DNA of 36,285 nucleotides, from assembly GCA_020627905.1 (NCBI GenBank), contig JAHDFZ010000005.1, positions 1 through 36,285 of the forward strand, written 5' to 3'. The stretch comes from Verrucomicrobiota bacterium (GTDB lineage Bacteria; Verrucomicrobiota; Verrucomicrobiia; Verrucomicrobiales; DEV007). This document shows, piece after piece, positions 22,786 to 33,361 of this stretch; positions within the stretch are counted from its first letter, which is position 1; every line of letters begins with the position of its first letter. Position numbers and translations under genes: made by a program. The notes below the pieces were generated by a model, which saw nothing but the letters and a program-made list of their open reading frames with translations, did no database searches and was not told where the DNA came from.

Positions 22786-24546
22786 TCACCCTCTCTTCAG
22801 AAATTCGCGCCAGCTACCTAAATCGGAAATTTCCCTGGCCCCCTCGGTGTCGATTTGCTCGCACAAAAAACCCGTAATCAGCACGCCATCACTCAGAACC
22901 ACCTTCCCCACACCCAGAGGTGCAGGAATCTGGCTGACAAAATCTCCGAACGCGGTTGGGTCGAGATCCCATACCTCTACATGGATGGCATGTCCCTCGC
23001 CCTCGGGCACCCGAATCAACCCGGGTCGCGGAGGCAAGCTCTCCGTAGGAGGCAAGGCAAAGAACCGATAAGAGGGTGCCGTCTCACTAGCAAAACAGAA
23101 GCGTCCACCTCGCTCAGTCAGCTGATGATTCAAGGCCAGACCATCCATGTGCGCACCACACACGGCTATCTGCAGTCGCTCCTCCGACCTGGCATTGAAA
23201 TCATGCCCAGCGATATCCAGAAGCTGCTGATCAGAGAAAGCCGGAGCAAAATAAGTCACGCCGAAGGGCATACCGTTAGAGAGCTCTCCTGCCGGCACAG
23301 CTACAGCAGCGTAATCCAGCAGGTTCATGAAATTCGTGTAGTAACCGAGGTTCGAATTTAAGGCGACGGGATCGGCCAAAACCTCATCGATCGTGTAGAT
23401 GGTCCCCGTGGTGGGCGTCATGATAGCATCCACGGTTTCCCATACTGCATCAGCCAGGCGCTTCTTATCAGCGAGTTTATACTGCGCGCGAAACGCATCC
23501 ACAGCTGACGGCTTTCCCCCGCCCTCTATGATAGAGCGGGTGACCGGATGCAGAATCTCGGGACGCTCCGTAATGATGTCCTCAATCGCCGCATAGCGCT
23601 CGGCCACCCAGGGCCCCTCATAAAGGAGACGGGCCGCCTCTAAAAAAGGCTGAAAGTCGACCTCCACGACAGTAGCCCCCGATTGCTTCACGCTGTCGAC
23701 AGCCTCTCCAAAACGAGTCCGAGCAGATTCATCCCCGAAAAATTCGAGGTCAGCCTCCCTCGGAACCCCGATGACAGCAACTCCATCACGGGATCGGTTG
23801 TTCGGTGCCGCCACTGGGCGTGCATACGCATCCTTTGGGTCAAATTGCGCCGCCACAGCAAGCACATGCTCAGCCTCTGCGAGCGAGTTCGCAAAAATCG
23901 AGACACAATCCAGCGTCCGACATGCCGGGATTACCCCCTGACAGCTCAACAGTCCGCGGGTGGGTTTCAGCCCCACGAGATTCTGGAAAGCTGCCGGCAC
24001 TCGCCCCGATCCGGCAGTATCCGTGCCGAGGGAGAACGCCGCTTCCCCGAAGCCCACTGCGCTAGCCGATCCAGAACTGGAACCTCCGGGTATGAACTCT
24101 GCCCCGCAGGAGTTCGGAGCGATACCATAGGGACTCCGAGTCCCCACCAGCCCGGTGGCGAATTGATCAAGATTGGTTTTCCCCATCGGGATAGCCCCGG
24201 CATTCATCAGTGCATGAACGACGAAGGCGGTTTCTTCAGGGGCATAGGAGGCGTCCGGGCAAGCTCCCGTTGTAGGAAACCCTGCTACATCTATATTATC
24301 CTTCACGGCGAACGGGACGCCGTAGAGAGGTAACTCATTGCTGCTCTTTTCTTCCAGAGCTGCTATCCACTGATCCAGAGTCTCCTCATCAACCACTGAT
24401 ATCCAGATTTTACTTTGATCAGGATTACGAAGAATCTTTTCGCGCAGAGCTGTCAGGTATTCCCGTGGCTGTGTTGTGCCAGCCTCATACTCCTTGAGGA
24501 GAGCCAAAAAATCGATTCGTTGCGGGTGTTTCATAACATTAGGCAT
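22786..24546 (-). CDS. Allophanate hydrolase
   Basis: 586 residues. The N-terminal amidase-signature domain contains the catalytic triad at Lys82 (AVKDNID), Ser156 (GGSSSGSA) and Ser180 (TDTAGSGR), with the same spacing as in AtzF. A C-terminal domain (about 460-586) is also present, as in full-length forms. It splits allophanate into ammonia and CO2. The start ATG overlaps the end of the carboxylase gene by 8 bp, so the two are translationally coupled. In this cluster it would be the last step of guanidine breakdown. An in-frame ATG at 24534 is an alternative start. Confidence 0.95.
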   Translation of the reverse strand: MPNVMKHPQRIDFLALLKEYEAGTTQPREYLTALREKILRNPDQSKIWISVVDEETLDQWIAALEEKSSNELPLYGVPFAVKDNIDVAGFPTTGACPDASYAPEETAFVVHALMNAGAIPMGKTNLDQFATGLVGTRSPYGIAPNSCGAEFIPGGSSSGSASAVGFGEAAFSLGTDTAGSGRVPAAFQNLVGLKPTRGLLSCQGVIPACRTLDCVSIFANSLAEAEHVLAVAAQFDPKDAYARPVAAPNNRSRDGVAVIGVPREADLEFFGDESARTRFGEAVDSVKQSGATVVEVDFQPFLEAARLLYEGPWVAERYAAIEDIITERPEILHPVTRSIIEGGGKPSAVDAFRAQYKLADKKRLADAVWETVDAIMTPTTGTIYTIDEVLADPVALNSNLGYYTNFMNLLDYAAVAVPAGELSNGMPFGVTYFAPAFSDQQLLDIAGHDFNARSEERLQIAVCGAHMDGLALNHQLTERGGRFCFASETAPSYRFFALPPTESLPPRPGLIRVPEGEGHAIHVEVWDLDPTAFGDFVSQIPAPLGVGKVVLSDGVLITGFLCEQIDTEGAREISDLGSWREFLKRG

Positions 24547-27500
24547 TCGGTTTCAGGAGACTGATGACCGAGCCGGGCTGCACGGGAGCACCTTCGTCGA
24601 GCAAGTGCCCTGACATGACACCATCACATGGCGCCAACACAGGGATCTCCATTTTCATACTTTCGACGATGGCGATTGTTTCATCCTCTTCCACGGCCTG
24701 CCCATCGGCGGCAGTGAGTTTCCAGATCGTTCCAGCCACAGGCGACACGGCAGCCTCCATACCCTCCGGCACATCGTTCGCTGGGTCTCCCGAGTCAGCT
24801 GCATCAGCCACTTCCACCTCGAAGTTCATGGTGCCATCCGCCTCCCAGCGCTCCCGTTCTTCCTGAAACGCATGACTTTGCTGCCCCCGAAATGCCGAAA
24901 TTTGCTCGGAGTTTTCCGATAGGAACTGATGGTAATCAGCGACACGGAAGCTTGTCTCCTCTACTTTCAGCTCCAGTTCGCCTAATTCAAACTGCCGCCG
25001 CATTTCGAGGAGTTCCTCAGCCTCGACGGGATACCAGCGGATCTGATCAAAAAACCGTAGCAGCCAGGGCGTGCCTTCGTGGAAGTGCTTTGTCACACGG
25101 TAGCGATTCCAGATCGGCAGGGTGCGACCGACGAACTGATACCCTCCGGGCCCCTCCATGCCATAAATGCACAGATAAGCACCACCGATGCCGACGCAAT
25201 TTTCTGCCGTCCATGTGCGCGCTGGGTTATACTTGGTCGTCACCAATCGATGCCGCGGGTCCAGCGGAGTAGCGACCGGGGCACCCAGATAAACGTCTCC
25301 TAAGCCCAATACAAAGTAGGATGCGTCGAAAACGATATCCTGAACCTGTTTGATGGACTCGAGACCATTGATCCGACGAATAAATTCGATATTGCTAGGA
25401 CACCATGGCGCATCGGGCCGCACAATCTGGGTGTATTTTTCAATCGCCTCGATGGTAGCCGGATCATCCCACGAAAGCGGTAGGTGGGCAATTCTACTGG
25501 GGAAGGTCATCTCAGCGACCGGAGGCAACTCCCCCACGAGAGAGCAAACCGTTCGAAGGAGCTCCTTCACGCTCAGCTGAGTCGTATCAAACTGAATCTG
25601 TAGGGACCGAATTCCCGGGACCAGTTCTCTGATCCCTTTGATCCCACCATCCAGAATACTCTGGTAGAGAGCCTGGGCTCGAAAGCGCAGATCGAGATCC
25701 AGCTCCATCGCCCCAAACTCGACGAGCACAGCACCATCGCCACTGGCCCGAATCGTCAGCTGCCCCTCTTCCTCATACAAAATCGGCGAACCGACAGGAT
25801 GACTCACCCCTGCTTTTGGCTCATAGAGCGCTCCCTGCTCGATGCTATGCTCCTGACGAGCATGCTCGCTCTCAGCATCCTCCAGCGATAGACAGGCGAA
25901 GCGGACTTTGTCGCCGGGCTTTAACTGCCCCAGTTTCCACAGGTCGGCCTGCACCACAACTAACGGGCAAACAAACCCTCCGAGACTCGGCCCATCCGGA
26001 CCGAGAATGATGGGCATATCACCAGTGAAATCGAGCGACCCCACGACGTAGGCATTGTCGTGGATGTTCGACGGATGCAATCCAGCCTCCCCACCGTCCC
26101 GCCGAGCCCACTCGGGTTTCGGGCCGATCAGGCGGATCCCCGTGCGATCCGAGTTATAATGAATCTCCCACTCCGTGCGGAACAGCATTTCGATGTCACC
26201 ATCAGTAAAAAACTCAGGAGCTGCATGCGGGCCATAAGTGACACGAAGTGCCCACTCATTAGACAATTCGACAGGTTGCTGCGCGACCGGTGAGACTCCT
26301 GCGCTTTCCTCAGAACGTAACCGATCCCCTATTTGCAGGGGCTTGCCCGTCGTTCCGCCAAACTTCCCTAGTCGAAATGTCGCGGCACTGCCGAGATAGC
26401 TAGGTGCATCCAGGCCACCTTTCACGAGCAAATAACACCGCTGTCCAACGGAGCCGATCGTTCCGATCTTCAGGGTCGCTCCAGCCTTCACATGGACGAC
26501 TTCGTGGAATGGGATCTCTTGTCCATCCAGCTCCGCTGGAGCCGCTGCCCCAGCGAGAACGACTTCGGTATCATAGTGGAAACGATACTTCCCTCCGCGG
26601 ATGGTCATCTCCAGCCCGGCCGCGTCAGAAGGATTTCCGAGGAGATTATTTCCGAGGCGAAAATGGTAGGGATCAAAAGGCCCTGACGGAGGCACGCCGA
26701 CGTCCCACATTCCCGTGCGTCCCGGGAAATCCTGAATCGTCGTCTCCAGTCCAGGCTGAAGCACCTCGATCGTTCTCGAGACAAATGATAGAGTGCTGAG
26801 AAAGCGCGTGTAAAGCTCGGCCTGCTGAAACTCAGGGGTCTCCAAGATGGTCGTTAAAAACTCCCGATTGGTTTCGATGCCATAGATGCGGGTGTTTGAC
26901 ACAGCATCTGCCAGCTTCTCCAGTGCGTCCGATCGGTCCTGACCATGAGCAATGAGCTTGCCGATCATCGGATCGTAAAAGTTCGAGACCTCGCTACCAC
27001 TGACATAACCGGAATCAAAACGGACGCCATCCGGCGTCTCCAGCAAGGTGATCAACCCGCTCGAAGGCTGGAACGATTTCGCCGGATCCTCAGCATAGAG
27101 TCGCGCCTGAATCGAATGACCTTTCTGCTCCAGAGAATCCTGCAACTCGCTTAGGGCTGGCAACTCATCGCAGCCTAGCTTCACCATCCATTCCACAAGG
27201 TCGATCCCAAAGACTTCTTCGGTGACTCCGTGCTCGACCTGCAGGCGAGCATTCACCTCCAGCAGAAAGAAATCGCGCGAAGCTTCGTCGAAAAGAAATT
27301 CCACCGTCCCAGCCGAGCGATAAGAAAGGGAGGAGAGAATGGCAACGGCTGACTGGTGCAGTTGCTCCCGCTCGGATTCGTGCAAGCCGGGAGCCGGACA
27401 CTCTTCGATCACCTTCTGGTTGCGCCGCTGGATGGAGCAGTCGCGATCCCCTATCGCGAGGACCTTCCCTTTGCCATCACCGAAACACTGAACCTCAATG

Positions 27501-28120
27501 TGACGCGCCCGCTCGATGTAGCGCTCCAAAAAAATGGCATCATCATTAAAGTTCGTCTTCGATAAATGGGAGACCTGACCATACACCGACTCCAGCTCCG
27601 TTACATCATGGGCGATCTGCATGCCGATGCCCCCACCGCCAGCGGAGGCTTTCAAAATGATCGGATACCCAACAGCTTCTGCGGCAGCAGCGGCCTCCTC
27701 AAAGGTCGTCAGCAGTCCACTCCCCTCCAGAAGCGGAACGCCATGCTGCTTTGCCAGTTCACGGCAGACATGCTTGAGCCCTGAGTCATGCAACTGGGTG
27801 GGCGTGGGGCCGAGAAAAACAATGCCCGCGTCTTCACAAGCTTGTGAAAAAGAGGCCTGTTCGCTCAGGAAACCGTAACCGGGGTGAATCGCCTCCGCTC
27901 CTGTCTGAATAGCAGCCTGAATGATAGCTTCGGCGTCCAGATACGTTTCGGCCGGAGTCATCCCAGGCAGTCGCACTGCCTCATCAGCCCGCAAGCGGTG
28001 CTCCGCTCCCTCGTCAGCATCGGAATAGACCGCAACGCTCTGGATCCCCAGCTTCTTCAGCGTGCGCTGAACGCGACAGGAAATCGCCGCCCGATTGGCG
28101 ATAAGAACTTTTGAAAACAT
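24539..28120 (-). CDS. Biotin-dependent guanidine/urea carboxylase
   Basis: 1,193 residues from ATG 28120 (MFSKVLIANRAAISCRVQ); the 1,224-residue track form is too long. In order it holds a biotin carboxylase domain (about 1-450; ATP-grasp KASAGGGGIGMQ), a KipA-type and then a KipI-type carboxyltransferase region (about 470-1010), and a biotin carrier domain near the C-terminus with VESMKMEI, biotin on about Lys1156. This is the full single-chain urea carboxylase layout. Proteins next to a DUF1989 pair have been shown to be guanidine carboxylases instead; here that is inferred from neighbours. The allophanate hydrolase gene overlaps its end. Confidence 0.92.
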   Translation of the reverse strand: MFSKVLIANRAAISCRVQRTLKKLGIQSVAVYSDADEGAEHRLRADEAVRLPGMTPAETYLDAEAIIQAAIQTGAEAIHPGYGFLSEQASFSQACEDAGIVFLGPTPTQLHDSGLKHVCRELAKQHGVPLLEGSGLLTTFEEAAAAAEAVGYPIILKASAGGGGIGMQIAHDVTELESVYGQVSHLSKTNFNDDAIFLERYIERARHIEVQCFGDGKGKVLAIGDRDCSIQRRNQKVIEECPAPGLHESEREQLHQSAVAILSSLSYRSAGTVEFLFDEASRDFFLLEVNARLQVEHGVTEEVFGIDLVEWMVKLGCDELPALSELQDSLEQKGHSIQARLYAEDPAKSFQPSSGLITLLETPDGVRFDSGYVSGSEVSNFYDPMIGKLIAHGQDRSDALEKLADAVSNTRIYGIETNREFLTTILETPEFQQAELYTRFLSTLSFVSRTIEVLQPGLETTIQDFPGRTGMWDVGVPPSGPFDPYHFRLGNNLLGNPSDAAGLEMTIRGGKYRFHYDTEVVLAGAAAPAELDGQEIPFHEVVHVKAGATLKIGTIGSVGQRCYLLVKGGLDAPSYLGSAATFRLGKFGGTTGKPLQIGDRLRSEESAGVSPVAQQPVELSNEWALRVTYGPHAAPEFFTDGDIEMLFRTEWEIHYNSDRTGIRLIGPKPEWARRDGGEAGLHPSNIHDNAYVVGSLDFTGDMPIILGPDGPSLGGFVCPLVVVQADLWKLGQLKPGDKVRFACLSLEDAESEHARQEHSIEQGALYEPKAGVSHPVGSPILYEEEGQLTIRASGDGAVLVEFGAMELDLDLRFRAQALYQSILDGGIKGIRELVPGIRSLQIQFDTTQLSVKELLRTVCSLVGELPPVAEMTFPSRIAHLPLSWDDPATIEAIEKYTQIVRPDAPWCPSNIEFIRRINGLESIKQVQDIVFDASYFVLGLGDVYLGAPVATPLDPRHRLVTTKYNPARTWTAENCVGIGGAYLCIYGMEGPGGYQFVGRTLPIWNRYRVTKHFHEGTPWLLRFFDQIRWYPVEAEELLEMRRQFELGELELKVEETSFRVADYHQFLSENSEQISAFRGQQSHAFQEERERWEADGTMNFEVEVADAADSGDPANDVPEGMEAAVSPVAGTIWKLTAADGQAVEEDETIAIVESMKMEIPVLAPCDGVMSGHLLDEGAPVQPGSVISLLKPNA

Positions 28121-28140
28121 CTCGTGTGACGAACAGCGTT

Positions 28141-28776
28141 CTACGCATCCCAGATCAACACCTCGATCGGCGTCGGATTGTAGGCATTGCAGGGGTTGTT
28201 CAGTTGAGGGCAATTCGAGATAAGTGCTAACACATCCTCTTTCGCTACCATTTCGACATAGAGACCAGCCGCCGAAATCCCATCCTCGAAAGTCAGCCCT
28301 CCCTCGGGAGTCACAGGAACGTTCATGAAGAAGTTAATATTGCAGCTGATGTCACGCTTCCCAAGCCCCTCTCCCCAGTCGTGAAGACCGATGAGGAAGT
28401 TGTCACGGCAGGAGTGCATCCACTCTGTCCGGGGGCCATACCGCATAGTATTGCTTTCGCGGGAACAAGCACCTCCTACCGTATCGTGGCGACCGCAGGT
28501 ATCAGCAGTGATCTCCAGCATCTCTCGACCCAGATTGGAAATGAGCACAGAGCCAGTCGTCAGGTATAGCGCCTGCTGACGCTGCACGGTATCAGAGGCC
28601 GAGTATCGCTCGTCCGGATCATCCGCCATGTAGAAAAGAATGTCAGCAGCCTGGTTCCCCTCTAAATCGAGGATACGAAAGGTCTGTCCTTTCTTGATCT
28701 TGTGCATCCAGGGATCTCCGGCACGGATGACATGTCGGTAAACGGCAGCTTCTGGGGAAAGGGTAGATTCTGTCAT
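28141..28776 (-). CDS. DUF1989 protein, carboxyguanidine deiminase subunit type (Cys-containing)
   Basis: 211 residues. It belongs to the 'urea carboxylase-associated' DUF1989 group. The conserved core reads [20 protein letters not shown], with two Cys and a His that could bind metal or act in catalysis. Related pairs have been shown to form carboxyguanidine deiminase (CgdAB), which converts carboxyguanidine to allophanate and ammonia. It lies 23 bp after the second DUF1989 gene and 20 bp before the carboxylase. I leave the subunit letter open. Confidence 0.88.
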
Positions 28777-28799
28777 GTTGGGTTTCTGAGTGCTGAATG

Positions 28800-29516
28800 C
28801 TACGAACGCAGTTTGTAATAATCCTCAGTGTTCGTGAGGGCCCATTGATTCTCCGGCCGCGAGTCACGGCAGGGGTCGACTTCCGGTGCGGTCCCTGTCT
28901 CAAAGACTTCCAGCTTCACTTTTGTCTTTGGGTAAGTGGTCGCCGGATCGAATGGGTGCGGGCAGGTGTTGAGAACCACGAGGGTATTCATCTCAAAGCG
29001 GAGGTCGACATAGCCTCCCGCTTCGCTGGATTCCGGGGAGTAATGCAGCTTCCCTTCTTCGTCAGCCTCTACTTTCGAAAACCAGTTAATGTTCGGAAGC
29101 AGGTCGCGCACTCCTAGCCCCCATTTCCCTAACTCGATCAGAAAGCACTCTCGCCCGTTTCGGTGAAAATCATTGCCGTGATCCTGATAGTCCTTTTCGC
29201 CATACTGCTGCAGGATCGACTCCGCATTTGTCGTCCCTGCGACAGTGTCGTGCCAACCTGCTGTATCAGCTGTGATGCTGGCAAAAATACGCCCCATGTC
29301 TGAGTGCAGGCAATACGGGTGGGTCAGATAGAATACATACTGCCCCTTCAGAGTGTCGGGCATGTTGTAGCGCTCCGTTAGCTGGTCAGCGTTATAAAGC
29401 AGCATTCCGACATTGGCACCACCTGTGACGTTGGTGAGACGCATCGTTTTGCCGCGTCCCACCACCTGGGACCACATGCCGGATTTGGTAAGAGTTTTTT
29501 CGTAAATCGGTTTCAT
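28800..29516 (-). CDS. DUF1989 protein, carboxyguanidine deiminase partner subunit type (Cys lacking)
   Basis: 238 residues, homologous to the downstream DUF1989 protein but diverged in the core: [19 protein letters not shown] replaces the Cys-containing motif, keeping the HDT. The N-terminus ([15 protein letters not shown]) and C-terminus ([16 protein letters not shown]) are family-like. It is expected to form a heteromer with the neighbour and may be structural or contribute a different part of the active site. It starts 12 bp after the ABC ATPase gene. Confidence 0.88.
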
Positions 29517-29528
29517 AGGGTTTTTTGC

Positions 29529-30428
29529 TTATTCCACACGGTCATCCTGCTGAGTCAGCTTCAGGATCGGCAAATTCACTGGCTCGGAGCGAGCCTCAGG
29601 TGGGTGGATCAAATTTTCAACGTGCTCTTTCGTCGCCAGAAACTCGGGACTGGAAAACTGCTCAGGGGAGCGCGGCCGCGGCACGGGGTTCTCGATGAAT
29701 TCCTGCACTTGACCCGGGTTTGGGCTCAGGACGAGAATCCGGTCAGCTAAGTAAATCGCCTCGTCCAGGTCATGGGTGACGAAGAGGATCGTCACATCGA
29801 CATTCCGCCAGATCTGCAGGAGATAGGACTGCATGTCAGCTCGCGTGTGCGCATCGAGAGCGCCGAAGGGTTCGTCCATCAGGAGGACCCGAGGCTCATT
29901 TGCCAGAGCGCGGGCGATGGCAACGCGCTGCTTCATGCCTCCTGATAGCTGATCTGGATAGGCGTTCTCAAACTTTTTCAGCCCGACAAGCTCGATCCAC
30001 TGGCGAGCTTCTGACTCTGCTGTCACCGGACTGTGACCCGTCGCCTCCAGCCCGAACATCACATTCCGCAAAACAGTAAGCCAGGGAAACAGCGTGTAAC
30101 TCTGAAAGACCATGCCTCGCTGGGAGCAGGGGCCATCTATGGACTCGCCCTGAAGCAGGGCTTCCCCCGTGGTGGGTGTCTCCAATCCGGCGATGATTCG
30201 GATGAGTGTCGACTTCCCACAACCGGAAGCACCGAGCACGGCGATCAGCTCTCGCCGGTGGATCTTGAGATCGATATCGAGAAGCGCCTGCACCGGGCTG
30301 CCATCGGGCTTCGTAAACGTCTTCGACAGACCGTTCAACTCAAGCTCCAGCGGCCGCTGATACAGCTCTGCGAACCGCTCTTTCACAGCAGCGCTCTTTT
30401 CCTGATAGCTGGGCAGTGGTTGAGTCAT
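29529..30428 (-). CDS. ABC transporter ATP-binding protein (nitrate/taurine/guanidine-type importer)
   Basis: 299 residues. Walker [10 protein letters not shown], signature LSGGMKQR, Walker [13 protein letters not shown] and the switch FVTHD are intact. The size and the [19 protein letters not shown] region match the SsuB/TauB/NrtD group. It energises the importer whose permease precedes it; the start ATG follows the permease stop directly. In this cluster the likely cargo is guanidine, by context. Confidence 0.93.
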
Positions 30429-31754
30429 TTACGAGGCACGGCGCAGGAGGCGGGTGAAGATCGAAGGTTTGCGGGCATTGGGCACCCAAGGGAAAAAGCG
30501 AGGTCTCAACCAGGCTAGCAGCTGATCCGTAGAGAAACCGATCAGCCCGATGAGAATAATGACAGGATAGACCTGGTCAAAGTTTCGCCGAACTCCCTGC
30601 GTGTCGATAATCTCGGTCAGGCCGGATTTCACGCCGATCAACTCCGCAATGACCAGCCAGGTCCAGGCCCATCCAAGGGCGATCCGGAGATCGTTATAGA
30701 GCTGAGGTAGGATCCCCGGGACCACTACTTTTGCGAGGAGTCTCTTCCGCGTCGCGCCCAGCGTCTGGGCTGCCTCCAGCAGGGAGCGATCCAGCAGGCG
30801 CGTCGTCTTGCAGATCATGAGGAAAAGATGGGGGAAAGTCCCGATGAGAACGAGCGCCACCTTTGGAGCATGATGCGCACCGAGCACCGCTACTAACAAA
30901 GTCGCGAAAGCCGGGGCTGGCATATAGCGAAAGAAGTCTGCAAATGGCTCGAAGAGTTTTGAAATACCGTCGAAGCTTCCAGCGATCACTCCGAGGGGAA
31001 CAGCAATGAGAGCTGCTACAAGGAAGCCACCGAAGACAATTCCGATCGACTGCCCCAGTCGGGCACCCATCGTTGGTTTTCCGTCCTCTGCCGGCCGCGT
31101 CCACTGCTCCCAGCCTGTCAGCAGCACTTCATGCGGAGCGGGGAGATAAACAGGATTCGCCGGTTTCCCCTGCGGGATCAGACCGAGAAGTTTTTCCTTC
31201 GGAAAGGTAGCTTTGTCATAAGTTTCAGAAGCATCAGACAGGATGGTCCAATTCTGTCTGGCAATTTCCTGATTCTCCTCGCTCAGGGGGATTCGACGAA
31301 AGACGGCTGGTTCTTCGGCTGCCTGGCGCCAGAGCTGAAAGATGTCCGCATCGCTTGTGAGCTGCCCTTCATGCAGGAGCCCATTGCGCACACTGATCGG
31401 CCCGAGCGCGCGGAGCGTTTTGATATTCGCACGGGAACTCGCGGTCACCGGCTCACCAGCCTGACTGGCCGAGAGTAGCTGGTCATTCGCCTCTCTCGCC
31501 TCCTGCCGCAGCTGAGGGTAGTAATCCTTCCCCACCTGATCCCCCGCTGTGTAGACCGTGGCCCCACTGGAGCCAATATCGAGCTTCACATCCGGATGCC
31601 ACAGGAACGGTGTGTAGCTGATGATACACCACAGAGCGAGAGGTGTGAGAAAGGAGGCCAGCGTGAGTAAGCTGGCCGCCCTAGGAGAGAGATCCTTGCG
31701 GATCTCAAGCCATTTCTTTCGTTTTCCCAAAATGAGAAAGGGCGCAATTGTCAA
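30429..31754 (-). CDS. ABC transporter permease with a large extracytoplasmic insert
   Basis: 441 residues, against about 250-280 for usual TauC/SsuC-type permeases. The first span (about 26-47) is followed by an extra hydrophilic region of about 150 residues (50-200), then the family segment YLPAPHEVLLTGW and the core spans with the EAA-type loop (LEAAQTLGATRKRLLAKV). The best available start is TTG 31754, with AAGG just before it and 5 bp past the stop of the binding-protein gene. No ATG lies near. The insert may contact the binding protein. Confidence 0.88.
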   Translation of the reverse strand: MTIAPFLILGKRKKWLEIRKDLSPRAASLLTLASFLTPLALWCIISYTPFLWHPDVKLDIGSSGATVYTAGDQVGKDYYPQLRQEAREANDQLLSASQAGEPVTASSRANIKTLRALGPISVRNGLLHEGQLTSDADIFQLWRQAAEEPAVFRRIPLSEENQEIARQNWTILSDASETYDKATFPKEKLLGLIPQGKPANPVYLPAPHEVLLTGWEQWTRPAEDGKPTMGARLGQSIGIVFGGFLVAALIAVPLGVIAGSFDGISKLFEPFADFFRYMPAPAFATLLVAVLGAHHAPKVALVLIGTFPHLFLMICKTTRLLDRSLLEAAQTLGATRKRLLAKVVVPGILPQLYNDLRIALGWAWTWLVIAELIGVKSGLTEIIDTQGVRRNFDQVYPVIILIGLIGFSTDQLLAWLRPRFFPWVPNARKPSIFTRLLRRAS

Positions 31755-31759
31755 AGGCC

Positions 31760-32752
31760 TTACTCAGAAGCGAGCGCCTTTGTGAAGGACGGGTCGAGGT
31801 AAGAACTGATGTCGAGAGGCTTCTCATACACCTCATACTTCACATTGAATTCATCGACCACTTTGCTGGAACCATAGACGGACTCCAGACCTTCCGCCTC
31901 TTTCCAGGCAGCAAGTGCTTCTTCGAGAGAGAGAATGTAGGTGCCTGCAAAGAATGGCTCGTATTCCTCCGGCTTCACATCAACGCGGGAAGCGAGGATC
32001 TCCAGCGCCTCATCGATGTTGTCCTCGTCTTTCAGGTAATCGACGATGCGATACCAGACTTTGGCCACTTTCGCCCAGTCATCCTTGCGAGCTTTCAGAC
32101 TTTCCTCATCGACGTAAAGGAGGTCATAAATGATTCCGGGTGCATCACCAGACGTGAAAATAGCCGTTGATCCATCGACAGCCTTGAGAGCCTGCCCAGA
32201 GTTCGGCTGCCAGGCGGTAATGGCGTCAACTGCGCCAGACTTGAGCACCTGAGGTGTCTCGCTGGTCGGTGTGTTGACGATCTCGATATCAGAATCGGAA
32301 AGGCCCGCTGACTCGAGAGCTTTCAGCGTGAGGAGGTGTCCGACAAATCCTTCTTCCACTCCCACTTTCTTGCCCTTCAGATCGGCGACAGAGGAAATGC
32401 CGGGAGCAGCAACCACCATGTCGTTCCCGTTCGAATAGTCATTGATGATGATTCCAACAGAAGGTTTGCCCGTGGCTCCTGTGACCAGGGCGTCGCCGTT
32501 TGTCATGCAGACCGCATCCACCTGCCCGGCCACGTAAGCATCCATCGATGCGACGTAATCGAACCAGAGAAATTCCACATCTACCCCTTCCTCTTTGAAC
32601 CAATCCTTTTTGATCCCGATCTCCCACGCGACCCAGCCCGGCCAATCAGAATAGGCGATCTTGAGAGGTTCTGCCTGAGCAGCAGCACCGAGAGTGAAAG
32701 CACCTGCCAGAGCAGCTACCCAAGCGCGACGAGAAAAAAGTGAACGTTGCAT
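31760..32752 (-). CDS. ABC transporter substrate-binding protein (guanidine-type, NrtA/TauA-like)
   Basis: 330 residues from ATG 32752 ([20 protein letters not shown]); the track's 32830 start is upstream of the signal peptide. A signal peptide of about 28 residues ends in AAAQAEP. The mature protein has the NMT1/TauA-type fold: [19 protein letters not shown], then [16 protein letters not shown] and [16 protein letters not shown]. Such binding proteins next to carboxyguanidine deiminase genes are associated with guanidine uptake. First gene of the seven-gene run; it follows a long non-coding stretch. Confidence 0.92.
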
Positions 32753-33361
32753 AATCGTAAGTGAGTGTGGATGAAAAATCGGCCTAAACGCCTCTTTCGC
32801 AGCGCACAAGAAGCAGCGCTCATGCCACAATCAAAAAAGTCTGCGATTTAGTGGGATTCGCAATCGACCAGCCGAGGTGGCTTTTCTGTCTGGCCAGAAA
32901 CAATGAACTCGGGCAGCCTCTGCGTCGGGGGCTCCTGCCTCCATTCCGACGGAAATGACGTTCTCCAGATCCAATGGGCTCGTTTAGGGCTCCATGCTTC
33001 AGAACCAGCGGTAGGGAAACTGCTGCTCCCGAAAAAATCCGACTATACGTTTCACGGCTGGCCCACTCGATTCAGACATTAACGACAAGTGGCTAAACGC
33101 TTTCCGCACCTGAAAAAGCGGCTTGTCTTTTTGCTCGCTAACGGTGGATTCAAGTTGCTGGGAGACAGTGGATCATAGGCGCCGATTTTAGGCTTTGAGA
33201 GGTTGCGCTGTTAGGCTTCCCGCATGCCAGCGCTGACAGCATCCTGACCGACGATCCCGTATCTCTGTTCAGCCTGCGCCGTGTATTCTGCCCAAATGCC
33301 CAGCAAGCCCGACGAAAGCGAACGCGCACCAACGCCCTAAGCATACGCCAACAGGTGCTGG
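32753..33361. other. 609-bp non-coding stretch upstream of the guanidine operon
   Basis: No credible gene: the only minus ORF (33150-33344, 64 codons, Arg-rich) looks spurious. On the minus strand the part nearest the operon has several hairpins: GTCGG...CCGAC around GGC-AGGA-GCC, GCAG-AGG-CTGC, and TTTCTG-GCCAGA-CAGAAA (about 32885-32950). I looked for the conserved cores of the guanidine-I, -II and -III riboswitches and did not find a convincing match. It must contain the operon promoter and the end of the hisD transcript, and it could be a structured leader or a dispersed repeat. Confidence 0.5.

Follow-up and report, generated by a model that had tools for sequence, protein, structure and literature searches.

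A predicted seven-gene guanidine utilization operon from a Verrucomicrobial genome and a NikR-like gene linked to guanidine operons of its relatives

Do the seven genes between positions 22786 and 32752 of the window, the 36,285-nucleotide stretch of Verrucomicrobiota DNA analyzed here, serve the use of urea, as their database names suggest, or of guanidine, and how might such an operon be controlled? All seven genes lie on the minus strand, are intact and contain zero internal stops. Gene starts and ends read from the sequence place the junctions, in order of transcription, at 5, 0, 12, 23, 20 and -8 bp, in agreement with the preliminary description, which had reported gaps or overlaps of no more than 24 bp (observed: -8 to +23 bp).

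An NMT1-type binding protein with an ATG start (31760..32752) is followed by an ABC permease of 441 aa with a TTG start (30429..31754; BPD_transp_1, E 1e-24) and an ABC ATPase (29529..30428; ABC_tran, E 4e-34). Then come two DUF1989 proteins, DUF1989-a of the UAAP1 type (28800..29516; TIGR03425, 314 bits, cut-off 206) and DUF1989-b of the UAAP2 type (28141..28776; TIGR03424, 324 bits, cut-off 285), which resemble the carboxyguanidine deiminase subunits CgdA and CgdB, respectively. The subsequent carboxylase of 1193 aa (24539..28120) shows the full-length TIGR02712 architecture (1678 bits, cut-off 1304) and the biotin motif ESMKME; its start is the ATG at 28120, while position 28213 of the open reading frame list is an upstream TTG. 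The last gene encodes an allophanate hydrolase of 586 aa (22786..24546; TIGR02713, 746 bits, cut-off 511) with an AH_C domain at the C-terminus (E 7e-44). These family assignments by curated profiles are far above chance and confirmed the gene set named earlier, from binding protein to allophanate hydrolase.

Upstream of the operon, a 609-bp leader without a clear gene (32753..33361, minus strand) is followed by a histidinol dehydrogenase gene (hisD) on the same strand. A CAAX-protease-like gene is located downstream. Scans for promoters and terminators gave no usable lead. The source genome is a 77.9%-complete assembly, and its closest named relatives belong to the Verrucomicrobiales (isolate SJ642, 62%; Rubritalea marina, 59%). 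In the permease (30429-31754), an N-terminal extension of approx. 200 residues precedes the transport domain and differs greatly in length among importers of the same subtype.

Substrate of the predicted pathway

The residue that selects the substrate in the carboxyltransferase was proposed earlier as a means to tell guanidine from urea. Alignment to the K. lactis urea amidolyase (PDB 5i8i) placed Asp697 of the window carboxylase (motif SLDFTGD) at position 1330, where the yeast enzyme has the Asn of urea carboxylases. Asp942 corresponds to K. lactis Asp1584, an Asp common to both enzymes. Asp at both positions is the criterion for guanidine carboxylases (PMC11410670), and the window enzyme is thus of the guanidine type. 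Over the full length of the carboxylase, the domain architecture is that of the fungal urea amidolyase/urea carboxylase (PDB 3va7, 5i8i; 1080 bits). The window differs from the fungal system by the Asp in place of Asn1330, by a separate amidase gene and by the DUF1989 pair. Among 130 loci read in the same manner, some of them duplicates, 129 have Asp at position 1330. The only Asn-type locus (L004, also listed as L154) belongs to genome G062; it encodes an allophanate hydrolase within 19 kb, and no DUF1989 pair was detected in these 19-kb surroundings.

The DUF1989 matches in the window's genome are two only, adjacent to each other and one per UAAP type. Both score above the TIGR03425 and TIGR03424 cut-offs, which is consistent with the earlier assignment as a predicted CgdA/CgdB pair. 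The importer points in the same direction. Its binding protein matches the TIGR03427 'urea ABC transporter' family only distantly (161 bits, cut-off 334). In four other species, genes for this importer subtype directly follow a guanidine-I riboswitch in the same orientation, starting about 135 (L059), 270 (L082), 300 (L097) and 950 nt (L074) beyond it, which argues for guanidine import. The importer could also accept methylguanidine or related compounds.

Guanidine rather than urea is thus well supported as the predicted substrate by the two Asp residues, the DUF1989 pair and the importer subtype, as the preliminary description had proposed. Its statement that the operon is hidden under urea annotations is correct for the database names. 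As a novelty it does not hold, since the re-assignment from urea to guanidine has been in print since 2020 (review PMC12186494).

The ABC importer would bring guanidine into the cell, and the biotin- and ATP-dependent carboxylase would convert it to carboxyguanidine. Removal of one ammonia by a CgdA/CgdB heteromer would yield allophanate, from which allophanate hydrolase would release two more ammonia and CO2. The guanidine carboxylase pathway of Pseudomonas syringae, Raoultella and Klebsiella (PMC12186494, PMC11410670) resembles the window in its three enzyme steps, the selecting Asp, the heteromeric DUF1989 pair and the adjoining ABC importer. Unlike these known operons, the window has all seven genes, which are probably co-transcribed, in one compact run, its importer is of another subtype than the L064-like one, and a guanidine-I or -II riboswitch was not found.

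Two other substrates were considered. If the operon were what its annotation says, urea would be imported and then broken down by urea carboxylase and allophanate hydrolase, and the DUF1989 proteins would play an accessory role. Apart from the family names of TIGR02712, TIGR03424, TIGR03425 and TIGR03427, this reading can draw on the genome, in which urease genes were not found, so that a urea carboxylase would be useful; as the assembly is 77.9% complete, their absence is no proof. It is opposed by the Asp at position 1330, by the importer subtype found 3′ of guanidine riboswitches in other species, and by the sole Asn-type relative, which has neither the DUF1989 pair nor the NikR-like gene described below, and we regard it as highly improbable. 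Equally small is the chance that the main substrate is a substituted or larger guanidino compound such as methylguanidine, from which guanidine arises as an intermediate. Methylguanidine-demethylating enzymes are indeed encoded in some guanidine operons (PMC12508155), and a Rieske oxygenase and other genes lie near the guanidine genes in loci of the same genus, but the window operon consists of importer and core enzymes only and contains no such gene. The explanation that we prefer, with a probability of roughly 0.88, is a single transcription unit for the use of guanidine as nitrogen source, of a kind for which relatives have a palindrome and a NikR-derived regulator in place of the guanidine-I riboswitch. 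The guanidine pathway itself is known; its regulation is the new part, and the riboswitch-free, NikR-associated form is a new variant.

A NikR-like gene accompanies guanidine operons of relatives

In many Proteobacteria, guanidine-I and -II riboswitches (RF00442, RF01068) sit in the leaders of operons of the same kind. The window gave no Rfam match, its leader none even at E values up to 10, and in particular no guanidine-I or -II aptamer, a trait that is common in such operons and not defining for the enzymes. Guanidine-I was found neither in the window's genome, where its absence outside the window is again no proof because of the incomplete assembly, nor in any of 96 Verrucomicrobiales genomes, about one third of which carry the carboxylase. 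Control scans of Proteobacterial operons by the same method gave clear riboswitch matches. The Rfam scans of 15 loci and of the window extended to guanidine-III and -IV insofar as the library includes these models. According to a 2025 review, no guanidine receptors are known other than riboswitches, transporters and enzymes, and transcription factors that bind guanidine may still be discovered (PMC12186494).

The operons of relatives contain a candidate for such a factor. A gene for a NikR-like protein of approx. 150 aa directly precedes cgdA in all 20 operons read from the genus and family of the window, and also in other Verrucomicrobia, Thiobacillaceae, Ectothiorhodospiraceae and a Pelobacter. 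All 34 Verrucomicrobiales genomes with a carboxylase not of the Asn type (two of these split over contigs; residues read where loci were available) share the same gene set, and every one of them has the NikR-like gene. Among the 96 genomes, the only one with a carboxylase and no NikR-like gene found is the Asn-type genome G062. The only one with the NikR-like gene and no carboxylase is G018, probably not a true exception, because its sequence ends inside cgdA right after nikR. In the Thiobacillus family, a carboxylase match was obtained in 16 of 61 genomes (14 above the cut-off), and guanidine-type NikR-like genes (78-100% identity) were located on the carboxylase contig, about 2 kb away, in 10 of 10 cases. 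The Fisher tests applied to these associations ignore kinship among the genomes.

The NikR-like gene tracks guanidine-type carboxylases and mostly excludes guanidine-I. Within 82 loci, 31 have the NikR-like gene only, 44 guanidine-I only, four both and three neither. In the four loci with both (L048, L049, L070 and L081), the NikR-like gene is part of a distinct cassette located 3′ of the enzyme genes. Here a riboswitch-type enzyme operon is followed by the NikR-like gene and a type III glutamine synthetase gene, in three of the four together with an importer of the window type, as if the cassette moved as a unit. Well-supported branches of the carboxylase tree carry six or more changes of the label. 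When independent pairs were compared, the riboswitch changed opposite to the NikR-like gene in 3-4 of 6 and in the same direction in none, although p = 0.125 reflects too few pairs for significance. One locus (L045) groups with NikR-type Thiobacillus relatives in the tree yet has a riboswitch, and a search of its whole genome gave no guanidine-type NikR-like gene. Betaproteobacterial NikR-type operons often retain a guanidine-II riboswitch upstream of the carboxylase gene. This links the NikR-like gene to guanidine and shows that not every riboswitch has given way to it.

Is the protein a nickel regulator? The NikR_C domain was found in six of six tested proteins and the RHH domain was called in three of them. 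The profile matched NikR structures with an E value of 6e-45, and NikR is the closest database family, some copies scoring above the NCBI NikR cut-offs. The E. coli NikR row of our alignment matches the PDB alignment in the part compared. Nickel ligands of E. coli NikR are His76, His87, His89 and Cys95 (PMC7055735). Cys95 is absent in 45 of 45 NikR-like sequences, so that we label them NikR-like and not nickel regulators. Most Verrucomicrobial copies have Arg at His76 and Leu at His89. The copies of L036 and L062 retain the three His ligands, which confines the case for a complete loss of metal binding to the other copies. A conserved Glu81, considered as a hallmark of the group, was rejected as it also occurs in P. 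horikoshii NikR.

Candidate operator of the NikR-like regulator

A search for shared hexamer dyads in the relatives returned GTATTA-N16-TAATAC and GTAATA-N16-TATTAC. Their geometry of six-base arms and a 16-base gap is that of the NikR operator, which in E. coli reads GTATGA-N16-TCATAC (PMC7055735). Scored as GTAWTAC-N14-GTAWTAC with at least 12 of 14 matches within 250 nt upstream, the palindrome is present in 33 of 39 loci with the NikR-like gene and in none of seven without it; shuffled controls reached a mean of 8.7 and a maximum of 12. It was missed in L053 and L081, where the importer end is absent from the available sequence, and L035, L104 and L106 have no good match. L132, the last of the six misses, carries the canonical E. 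coli operator upstream of the nikR-like gene; its NikR-like protein lacks Cys95 and His89 despite this E. coli-type site. In four genomes (G001, G010, G013 and G015), enzymes and importer operon are found on separate contigs, and the importer operon has its own copy of the palindrome, with one mismatch. Remaining genomic matches are sporadic and near the level of control patterns.

With NikR of E. coli (1q5v) and P. horikoshii (2bj1), the regulator of the relatives shares the NikR_C domain, clear homology and the palindrome spacing. It differs by the loss of the Cys ligand in all 45 sequences, by the half-site, GTATTAC/GTAATAC in most and not GTATGA, and by its linkage to guanidine genes. A conventional nickel regulator that happens to accompany nitrogen genes might share the same domains, pass the NikR cut-offs in some copies and keep three His ligands in L036 and L062; urease genes, moreover, occur near L035 and L065. 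The missing Cys and the Arg and Leu substitutions speak against it, as do the recurrence of the palindrome at guanidine enzyme and importer operons, with other matches near control level, and the canonical NikR genes of the Thiobacillus family (31-37% identity), which are unlinked to the carboxylase. For the relatives' regulator, to which this alternative is confined, we consider it unlikely, less so than the two alternative substrates. The urease genes near the guanidine operons of L035 and L065 indicate that some relatives can use both substrates. Both loci contain a match to the 5′ ureB sRNA family (RF02514; L035:20690-21018, L065:19173-19467), with urease a few kb away.

The association of the NikR-like gene and the palindrome with guanidine operons is an observation; the regulator may in addition sense guanidine or a pathway intermediate. 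We somewhat favor a reading in which a NikR-derived protein that lost its nickel site acts as a guanidine- or intermediate-responsive factor, binds GTAWTAC-N14-GTAWTAC and takes the place of guanidine-I, the window lineage being exempt at its operon. This reading would apply to Verrucomicrobia and several Proteobacteria, with putative sites before enzyme and importer operons. Our search found no literature joining NikR with guanidine use; subscription papers lay largely outside the search, and earlier notice is possible. Control of guanidine pathways is believed to be riboswitch-based, and the loci of the relatives point to a candidate protein together with the DNA site and the regulon that it is likely to have, so that a single purified protein and a 28-bp DNA would suffice to test the question. 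Genes of these operons named 'urea carboxylase', 'urea ABC transporter' or 'NikR' may then belong to guanidine use.

The window operon among its relatives

The window operon is an exception to this pattern. Neither the 609-bp leader nor the rest of the window contains a nikR-like gene or a remnant of one. A NikR-type palindrome is absent from the window (best match 7 of 14), and the palindrome count of its whole genome is below that of the reversed control. Two diverged NikR-like genes are encoded elsewhere in the genome, on C50 and C306. They nest in the guanidine NikR clade of the same genus (support 99/98) and have lost His87 as well. These two orphan genes would be candidates for control of the window operon in trans. 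The C50 copy (L135) is divergent from a gene that we take to be lgt-like, and in G010, G013 and G015 (L142, L143 and L145) the palindrome and importer operon occupy the same lgt-adjacent position.

The window carboxylase groups with those of Rubritalea and SJ642. Common descent with the other carboxylases of the same genus in the tree was tested and rejected (AU p = 2e-65, from quick trees with long branches). G009, a genome of the same genus outside that tree, encodes a related carboxylase (63% over the available part) at a locus with nikR, cgdA, cgdB and a weaker palindrome. The simplest reading for the window is that the operon was rearranged or replaced, probably leaving the regulator behind.

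Many loci of the same genus and family (L113-L132, e.g. L121:9146-17343) contain a larger cluster upstream of nikR. It encodes a second ABC importer, a Rieske oxygenase distantly similar to glycine betaine monooxygenase, a type III glutamine synthetase, a protein of the polysaccharide deacetylase family and two proteins with FGE-sulfatase domains, and its substrate is possibly another guanidino or amine compound.
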